Positions 62,552-63,843 of a stretch of 64,000 nt of DNA are shown here, piece by piece. How positions within the stretch are numbered: the stretch's first letter is position 1; every line of letters begins with the position of its first letter. A program made the position numbers and the translations under genes. Source of the DNA: Lysobacter sp. KIS68-7 (GTDB taxonomy: Bacteria; Pseudomonadota; Gammaproteobacteria; Xanthomonadales; Xanthomonadaceae); assembly GCF_021284745.1 (NCBI RefSeq), contig NZ_CP089925.1:1735001-1799000 (forward strand), in the 5' to 3' direction. Under the pieces are notes generated by a model. That model did no database searches, was not told where the DNA came from, and was given only the letters and a program-made list of their open reading frames with translations.

Positions 62552-62728
62552 TTACATCGGTTTCTTGAGGTAGAGCTGCACGGGGCGGAGCGGGTGCGTC
62601 ATGACGACGCTCACCAGTTCCCACCCCTGCAGGCCGAGCTGCGTCAGCTTTTCCTGCACCACGTCGCGGCTGACGCCCATGAAGCCCTTCAACTCCACGA
62701 CCTGGTAACTCCAGCGATCATTCACCAT
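62552..62728 (-). CDS. DUF4177-type small protein
   Basis: This 58-residue protein starts VNDRWSYQVVELKGFMGVSR (residues 2-21) and continues with QEKLTQLGLQGWELVSVVM and a final QLYLKKPM. The pattern W.Y.VVELK...G and LN..G.QGWELV....H (the GWELV core) is the DUF4177 signature. Its start lies within the end of the ribbon-helix-helix gene. The function is unknown; the family is often found next to SPFH or regulatory genes. It is too short to show in ordinary gene scans with a 60-residue limit. Confidence 0.82.
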   Translation of the reverse strand: MVNDRWSYQVVELKGFMGVSRDVVQEKLTQLGLQGWELVSVVMTHPLRPVQLYLKKPM

Positions 62729-62909
62729 CGTCGTTCTCCGTCGGAGGCGCGGCAGGGCCGGGGGGGAGCCGGCCTGCCTTGCGCAATGCGTCGCGCAACA
62801 CGTACTCGATCTGCGCGTTGAGCGATCGCAGTTCGTCGTCGGCCCATCGCTGCGCAGCGCCGAGCACGTCGGCGTTGATGCGCAGCGGATAGGCTTTCTT
62901 CTCAGCCAT
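62718..62909 (-). CDS. Arc-like ribbon-helix-helix DNA-binding protein
   Basis: This 63-residue protein has the ribbon-helix-helix fold of the Arc/MetJ type: KKAYPLRINADVLGAAQRWA, which covers the beta strand and helix 1, then ELRSLNAQIEYVLRDALRKA with the typical RSLNAQIEYVL helix. The Pro-rich tail is variable. Such proteins bind DNA as dimers and often control their own operon. It starts in the SPFH stop (ATGA) and overlaps the DUF4177 start by 11 bases. Two palindromes at 63816-63834 are candidate operators. Confidence 0.88.
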   Translation of the reverse strand: MAEKKAYPLRINADVLGAAQRWADDELRSLNAQIEYVLRDALRKAGRLPPGPAAPPTENDDGE

Positions 62910-63772
62910 CAGTACAGCGTGCCCGCGTTGACGATCGGCTGCGTCGCGCGTTCACCGCACAACACCACCAGCAGGTTGCTGACCATCTGCGCCTTGCGCT
63001 CTTCGTCGAGATGGACGACGCCATTCTTCTGCAGTTCCGCGAGGGCCATTTCGACCATGCCCACGGCGCCGGCGACGATGCGCGTGCGCGCCGCGATGAT
63101 CGCGTTCGCCTGCTGGCGTTGCAGCATCGCCTGCGCAATTTCGGGCGCGTAGGCCAGGTGGCTGATGCGCGCATCGAGCACCTGCACGCCGGCATCGGCC
63201 AGGCGTTCGGACAGTTCCTGCGCCAGGTGCGCGCTGATTTCGGCGGCGTGGCTGCGCAGCGAGAGCTGGCCTTCCTCGTGCTGATCGTAGGGATAGCTGG
63301 TGGCCATCGCACGCAGCGCGGATTCGGACTGGATCTGGACGAAGCTTTCGTAGTCGTCGACGTTGAACACGGCTTCGGCCGAATCCACGACCTGCCACAC
63401 GATCACCGCGGCAATCTCGATCGGGCTGCCGTCGAGCTCGTTGACCTTGAGCTTGCCGCTTTCGAAGTTGCGCACGCGCTGGCTGACCTTGCGCTTCGTA
63501 TAGAAGGGGTTGTTCCAGCGCAGGCCGTTTTCCTTGACCGTGCCCACGTACTTGCCGAACAGGCTCACCACCGCGGCCTGGTTGGGCTCGACCATGTACA
63601 GGCCGAAGCTGCAGAAGACGGAGAGCAGGGCGACCAGCAGGCCTGCGACGATCCACGCCGGGGCGCCAGCCCGGACGCCGTTGAACATCAGGTACGCGCC
63701 GAACAGCACCGCCACGATGAAGGCAAGCAGCATCGGGATGCCGGCGGCGGAGCGGAGGGGGTTCTCTTTCAT
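62909..63772 (-). CDS. SPFH domain membrane protein
   Basis: This 287-residue protein has two N-terminal membrane helices (residues 10-30 and 38-57) and an SPFH domain starting VEPNQAAVVSLFGKYVGTVK, with ASTYPYD-like ATSYPYDQHEEGQLSLRSH and the AQAMLQRQQANAIIAARTRI helix. It resembles the stomatin/YbbK-like SPFH proteins found in many bacteria and likely forms an oligomer in the membrane. The start ATG 63772 is chosen since the upstream open frame covers the promoter. A short operon follows: ribbon-helix-helix protein, DUF4177 protein and a small membrane protein. The precise role is unknown. Confidence 0.9.
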   Translation of the reverse strand: MKENPLRSAAGIPMLLAFIVAVLFGAYLMFNGVRAGAPAWIVAGLLVALLSVFCSFGLYMVEPNQAAVVSLFGKYVGTVKENGLRWNNPFYTKRKVSQRVRNFESGKLKVNELDGSPIEIAAVIVWQVVDSAEAVFNVDDYESFVQIQSESALRAMATSYPYDQHEEGQLSLRSHAAEISAHLAQELSERLADAGVQVLDARISHLAYAPEIAQAMLQRQQANAIIAARTRIVAGAVGMVEMALAELQKNGVVHLDEERKAQMVSNLLVVLCGERATQPIVNAGTLY

Positions 63773-63814: not shown

Positions 63815-63843
63815 GTGATATCACTCTGATATCAACTGCGCAA
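63815..63843 (-). promoter_or_regulatory. Operator-like double palindrome in the SPFH operon promoter
   Basis: Two perfect TGATATCA palindromes lie at 63816-63823 and 63827-63834, with centres exactly 11 bases apart. On the minus strand they lie between and over TTGCGC (plus strand 63838-63843) and TATCAC (63815-63820), a weak -35/-10 pair with 17-base spacing upstream of the SPFH gene. The arrangement matches how ribbon-helix-helix repressors bind tandem half-sites along one DNA face. Confidence 0.5.

Follow-up and report, generated by a model that had tools for sequence, protein, structure and literature searches.

Tandem palindromes ahead of an SPFH operon in Lysobacter are probably the operator of an Arc-like autorepressor, in an arrangement that recurs across bacterial phyla

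Two copies of the palindrome TGATATCA lie near the end of the window, the whole 64,000-nucleotide stretch of Lysobacter sp. KIS68-7 DNA that was analyzed. With a probability of roughly 0.8, comparisons of sequence suggest that they form the operator of an Arc-like autorepressor, a ribbon-helix-helix (RHH) protein encoded by the second gene of the SPFH operon that they precede. The same comparisons point to a control circuit of operator, SPFH, and RHH that would be old and has been kept across phyla. The features of the locus, in the order in which they are read on the minus strand, are as follows.

63838..63843, minus strand: -35-like hexamer TTGCGC, with 3 of the 6 letters of TTGACA, 17 bp before TATCAC
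63827..63834, minus strand: upstream palindrome TGATATCA, in the putative promoter spacer, conserved, 11 bp from the second site
63816..63823, minus strand: downstream palindrome TGATATCA, overlapping the putative -10 element, conserved
63815..63820, minus strand: putative -10-like hexamer TATCAC, with 4 of the 6 letters of TATAAT
62909..63772, minus strand: SPFH/Band 7 membrane protein of 287 aa (Pfam PF01145, E 2.3e-29), with the likely start ATG 63772 taken from relatives
62718..62909, minus strand: Arc-like RHH protein of 63 aa, a putative autorepressor, whose ATG overlaps the SPFH stop by one base
62552..62728, minus strand: DUF4177/Sp36-like protein of 58 aa, overlapping the RHH gene (Pfam 23.3 bits against a cutoff of 25; NCBIfam Sp36 25.4 against 50)

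A sequence-only reading of this DNA had described two identical 8-base palindromes with centers 11 bases apart, and this description was exact. In the 64-kb window, which has a GC content of 67%, TGATATCA was found twice, at 63816-63823 and 63827-63834, with a gap of 3 bp and a center-to-center distance of 11 bp. Dinucleotide shuffling of the window gave an expected count of 0.08, and two copies were obtained in none of 100 shuffles. The pair TGATATCA-N3-TGATATCA occurs at a single place in the 3.25-Mb genome, even when up to three mismatches are allowed, and a reversed control pattern had no match in the same genome. Given this one site only, a wider regulon in the organism's own genome was rejected.

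The row of minus-strand genes at the end of the window consists of SPFH, RHH, the DUF4177/Sp36-like gene, a gene for a 64-aa protein, and a VanY peptidase gene. ATG 63772 is the most probable start of SPFH, because an MKE/MRE-like start occurs at the corresponding position in 30 of 49 relatives at the order level. On these grounds the alternative ATG 63814 is unlikely. It immediately adjoins a palindrome and would fall on the putative -10 element. The DUF4177 gene had been counted as part of the regulated unit, which needs correction, since it is present in only 27 of the 49 order-level loci; it is a variable passenger, and the core of the arrangement comprises the operator, SPFH, and RHH.

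Conservation was examined first within the order and the family. A search of 60 relatives recovered an SPFH homologue in 49, and in all 49 an RHH homologue followed downstream on the same strand. All 49 order-level SPFH loci also carried the array upstream with 12 to 16 of its 16 letters, including 31 with the exact core pattern, and in two of the loci (L047 and L050, f7) essentially one palindrome was kept. Among 149 genomes of the family, the exact pattern TGATATC-N4-TGATATC was present in 118, at most once per strand per genome, and the reversed pattern in none. The RHH gene was identified in 136 of the 149 genomes. The exact tandem occurred in 118 of these 136 and in none of the 13 RHH-free genomes (Fisher p 1.2e-10, uncorrected for relatedness). 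Of the 110 places listed for the 118 genomes, 109 had the array 790-1422 nt before the RHH gene on the same contig, and in the remaining one (G074) the contig breaks within SPFH. The 18 RHH-positive genomes lacking the exact pattern had near versions of 13-15 letters (L030, L037, and sixteen others), with that of L071 the poorest by eye. A search for SPFH covered four of the 13 RHH-free genomes and found it in none of the four. The family test therefore leaves RHH and SPFH unseparated, and co-occurrence in the family alone cannot assign the loss of the site to RHH rather than to SPFH.

A sample of 369 genomes from the class yielded the RHH gene in 10, and five of these 10 lie beyond the order; all five of these loci included SPFH and an upstream site of 15-16 of 16 letters. 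An SPFH match at E<=1e-40 was obtained in 14 of the 369 genomes, and in the four that had no RHH gene no site was found, the best match anywhere in the locus having 9-11 letters. At 37-47% identity, these four SPFH genes from genomes without RHH are only remotely similar and may be non-orthologues.

Homologues of RHH in a plasmid collection revealed SPFH-RHH pairs in Deinococcus, Parabacteroides, Prevotella, Qipengyuania, Nonomuraea, and Acetoanaerobium. A scan of a genome collection with the RHH profile identified at least 591 relatives, of which the best 80 loci were taken together with eight others, so that the 88 cross-phylum loci were chosen by RHH protein similarity alone. SPFH preceded RHH in 84 of the 88 loci, 80 of which are the best 80 of the at least 591 relatives. 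A tandem of at least 13 of 16 letters was located just upstream of SPFH in 81 of the 84; it was perfect in 26, and all 81 beat 200 of 200 dinucleotide shuffles. In the three exceptions the array stood at the head of a longer operon: a hydrolase gene came first in L116, with a 14 of 16 site ahead of it, and L155 and L187 had the order ABC ATPase, permease, SPFH, and RHH, where a triple array preceded the ATPase gene and the best pairs had 16 and 15 of 16 letters, respectively. In L190:1832-5465 and L222:2236-4661, an ABC ATPase gene and a permease-like gene lengthen the operon ahead of SPFH, and the array stands at the new operon head.

The geometry of the array was also retained. Among close pairs of sites in the cross-phylum loci, 73 were spaced at 11 bp and the other spacings were scattered, with one to three pairs each. 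In-register sites numbered two in 52 of the 81 loci, three in 25, and four in one, and the remaining three had a single site of at least 6 of 8 letters. The palindrome is conserved across phyla while its flanks vary, and away from the operator only 1 of 451,715 positions in the 81 loci reaches 13 letters. The RHH-bearing loci span Bacillota, Actinomycetota, Bacteroidota, Ignavibacteriota, Deinococcota, Cyanobacteriota, Acidobacteriota, Pseudomonadota, and Spirochaetota, in a set that includes many metagenome bins and in which gut Bacillota predominate.

In the class of an actinomycete, RHH was found in 87 of 296 genomes. SPFH was present in 28 of the 29 new loci examined from these 87, and 25 of the 28 SPFH-RHH loci had a site of at least 12 letters near the SPFH start or upstream. 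The other three (L230, L235, and L239) had 10-11 letters, a score that shuffles also reach. The second site in the actinomycete loci was often TGCTAG or TGATAG. Among viral contigs, 24 stretches matched a pattern and none of them encoded a relative; weak RHH matches were seen in three records of a phage collection. The sequence-only reading had proposed, as a check on itself, that the palindromes be kept in relatives that keep the operon, and they were kept both in the family and across phyla. Its suggestion of autoregulation gains support from this conservation and from the co-occurrence with RHH.

The solved-structure relatives nearest to the profile of the RHH protein (A1) were Arc chains, namely permuted Arc with an E-value of 1.1e-07 and wild-type Arc with 0.0045. 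The Pfam Arc family (PF03869) gave the RHH protein of the window 14.8 bits, under the cutoff of 20.4, was matched at E<=0.1 by 25 of 25 members of A1, and had its cutoff exceeded by two distant RHH relatives. Judged by these matches, the RHH protein is related to Arc in sequence. An AF2 monomer model, with a mean pLDDT of 78.7, contained two helices and no assigned strand; Foldseek placed Arc chains first for this model, with 1par as the top match and a weak E-value of 0.2 at best. The description of the second gene as Arc-like thus agrees with the best solved relatives of the profile, and the fold match is weak. The invariant positions of the protein in alignment A4 are K5, L9, R10, W22, D25, R28, S29, N31, Q33, I34, and E35. 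Some covariation between protein and site was observed. Where P precedes LR in the protein (125 loci), 95% of half-sites have G as their second letter, and where V or I precedes LR (6 loci), about 40% have A there; the loci are too few and too related for this covariation to prove contact. Members of the RHH family are publicly annotated as hypothetical protein, HicB family antitoxin, or PTS ascorbate transporter subunit IIC (L100, L103, and L106).

The array overlaps a promoter-like pattern, as had been proposed from the window alone. On the minus strand, TTGCGC is followed after 17 bp by TATCAC, and the downstream palindrome closes with the letters TATCA. In 39 of the 49 order-level loci, a TTG with A, C, or T as its next letter lies no more than 12 nt ahead of the array, and TTGACA-N17-TATCAT occurs in L157 and L172. 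In a set of 150 loci, which comprises only those with at least 12 site letters and a parsable RHH gene and therefore yields no rates, the best -35-like hexamer at 15-19 bp before the -10 element had a mean of 3.23 of 6 letters, compared with 2.51 and 2.83 at two control positions (Mann-Whitney p 3e-08, uncorrected for relatedness). Among the 59 loci of this set with at least four letters at -35, the spacer was 16 or 17 bp in 42. The distance from the end of the site to the SPFH start was 23-61 nt in the 49 order-level loci. The distance is shorter in 11 of the 81 cross-phylum loci, where the site either runs into the assigned SPFH start or stops fewer than 10 nt short of it, which would need either a near-leaderless transcript or a misassigned SPFH start.

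The array plausibly covers the spacer and the -10 element of a promoter recognized by its pattern, which would place it in the position of a repressor. Two dimers of the 63-residue RHH protein would bind, each to its own TGATATCA and separated by one turn of the helix. With one dimer on the -10 element and the other on the spacer, RNA polymerase would be excluded, and the SPFH-RHH operon would limit its own expression. Autorepression is most likely the outcome of bound RHH. A bound RHH that chiefly activates or fine-tunes the promoter seems improbable: the position of the array is deduced from sequence and the promoter match is modest at the -35 mean given above, which leaves some room for such a role, but the putative spacer and -10 element are where a repressor would sit, and most small Arc-type RHH proteins act as repressors.

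Loci in which RHH occurs without SPFH, rare in this material, bear on which protein owns the site. Four were examinable, with one clear site, one weak site, and two without any; a fifth (L114) was cut by a contig end. The clear case is L140, where a 14 of 16 site at 2971-2989 lies beside the RHH start near 2994; the genome of L140 contains another RHH gene, which is accompanied by SPFH and an array (L189). The weak site, in L133, has 12 of 16 letters. No site was found within 7 kb in L104:2477-2668, a Thermus thermophilus plasmid where RHH lies behind ABC transporter genes, and none was found in L247/L252. The SPFH-free loci lean toward RHH as the owner of the site, without settling the matter.

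Additional arrays were surveyed in 20 genomes of other lineages, allowing up to two mismatches, and among the arrays listed, those used together with their neighbors were L188, L189, L190, L191, L195, and L222. The reversed pattern is an unfair null in the AT-rich genomes of this survey. In Neobacillus sp. PS3-12, the genome of L130, a second array of 15 of 16 letters was located away from the SPFH operon (L188:2160-2189), where it precedes genes for a 71-aa membrane protein and a DrrA-like ABC transporter. In a Lachnospiraceae bin, the genome of L155, a triple array with a best pair of 16 of 16 letters precedes a gene for a YhfC intramembrane metalloprotease (L191:1901-1930). Each of these two genomes has one RHH gene. 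The regulon thus appears to consist of one operon in the family of the window and to be somewhat larger, and membrane-related, elsewhere. A small contig of Streptococcus parasanguinis (L194:1791-2010) carries a different RHH-like protein beside a replication-like gene, with arrays of the TGATAAC/TGATATC type around the RHH-like gene.

These loci also supply what can be said for an unlinked regulator that binds the tandem palindromes while RHH acts elsewhere, namely the two SPFH-free RHH homologues without a site and the two genomes with extra arrays before other membrane genes. There is little likelihood of such a regulator, however, since one site per family genome favors a dedicated local regulator, the SPFH-free RHH gene of L140 retains a site, RHH is shared by all operons found with the array at their head, and the 11-bp spacing suits an Arc-like protein. 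Chance, or a functionless sequence feature, was ruled out with next to no doubt by the shuffles, the uniqueness in the genome, the conservation across phyla with variable flanks, and the background of 1 in 451,715 positions.

The autorepressor reading can be extended into a membrane-stress switch, a speculative and rather unlikely proposal in which SPFH would trap the RHH repressor where the membrane is disturbed, thereby derepressing its own operon, as an ancient device of many phyla whose operator can still be read letter by letter. The C-terminal tail of SPFH would perhaps hold RHH, and in some lineages the ABC transporters and the intramembrane protease would also be derepressed. The SPFH tails are alike in distant phyla, with QPIVNAGTLY in the window (62912-62947), QPVVNTGTLY in Nonomuraea, and QPIVNSGSLY in Acetoanaerobium (SPFH ends of L102 and L105). 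The similar tail is possibly a contact site.

Several known systems resemble the arrangement in part. In phage P22, two dimers of the Arc repressor occupy adjacent half-sites 11 bp apart, one turn from each other, and the window shares with it a related RHH protein and the spacing. The arrangement differs from Arc in that it belongs to a cellular operon with an SPFH membrane gene, that its 8-bp sites are fully palindromic, and that arrays of three or four sites occur in 26 of the 81 cross-phylum loci. MetJ is likewise an RHH repressor of tandem 8-bp palindromes, but its met boxes are contiguous, with centers 8 bp apart, compared with 11 bp here. Of the Arc/MetJ-type spacing named in the sequence-only reading, the Arc half therefore fits and the MetJ half does not. 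The CopG/ParD antitoxin operons also include a small RHH protein and are thought to be self-controlled; here, in contrast, the partner is SPFH rather than a toxin, and it precedes RHH. No toxin gene was found adjacent to RHH, the Pfam neighbors in the window being SPFH, DUF4177-like, one protein without a family above cutoff, and VanY.

The HflK/HflC and QmcA-NfeD operons share an SPFH membrane protein with the window, where the partner is instead a predicted DNA-binding protein. An assignment of the window SPFH to HflK/HflC was rejected, as the NCBIfam equivalog cutoffs were missed by far (hflK 32.2 against 159.4 bits; hflC 29.4 against 134.4). QmcA pairs with YbbJ (NfeD), according to PMC8656257. 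No description of the SPFH-RHH operon or its operator was found in the open-access papers searched, including passages of PMC8656257, PMC2965109, and PMC7159879, a scope to which subscription papers mostly do not belong. RHH autoregulation as such is already known. What is apparently new is the coupling of a probable RHH autorepressor to a membrane scaffold gene in place of a toxin, and apparently also the conservation of its operator from one phylum to another.

Operators usually drift between phyla. Here, a 19-bp array and the same two genes are recognizable in gut Bacillota, actinomycetes, Bacteroidales, Deinococcus, cyanobacteria, and the family of the window. The finding would also give the small proteins of this family a name to replace the three annotations mentioned above: hypothetical protein, HicB-family antitoxin, and PTS ascorbate transporter subunit IIC. 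The signals sensed by bacterial SPFH (stomatin/flotillin-type) proteins are a long-standing question, for which a dedicated repressor with a defined operator would give a direct reporter.
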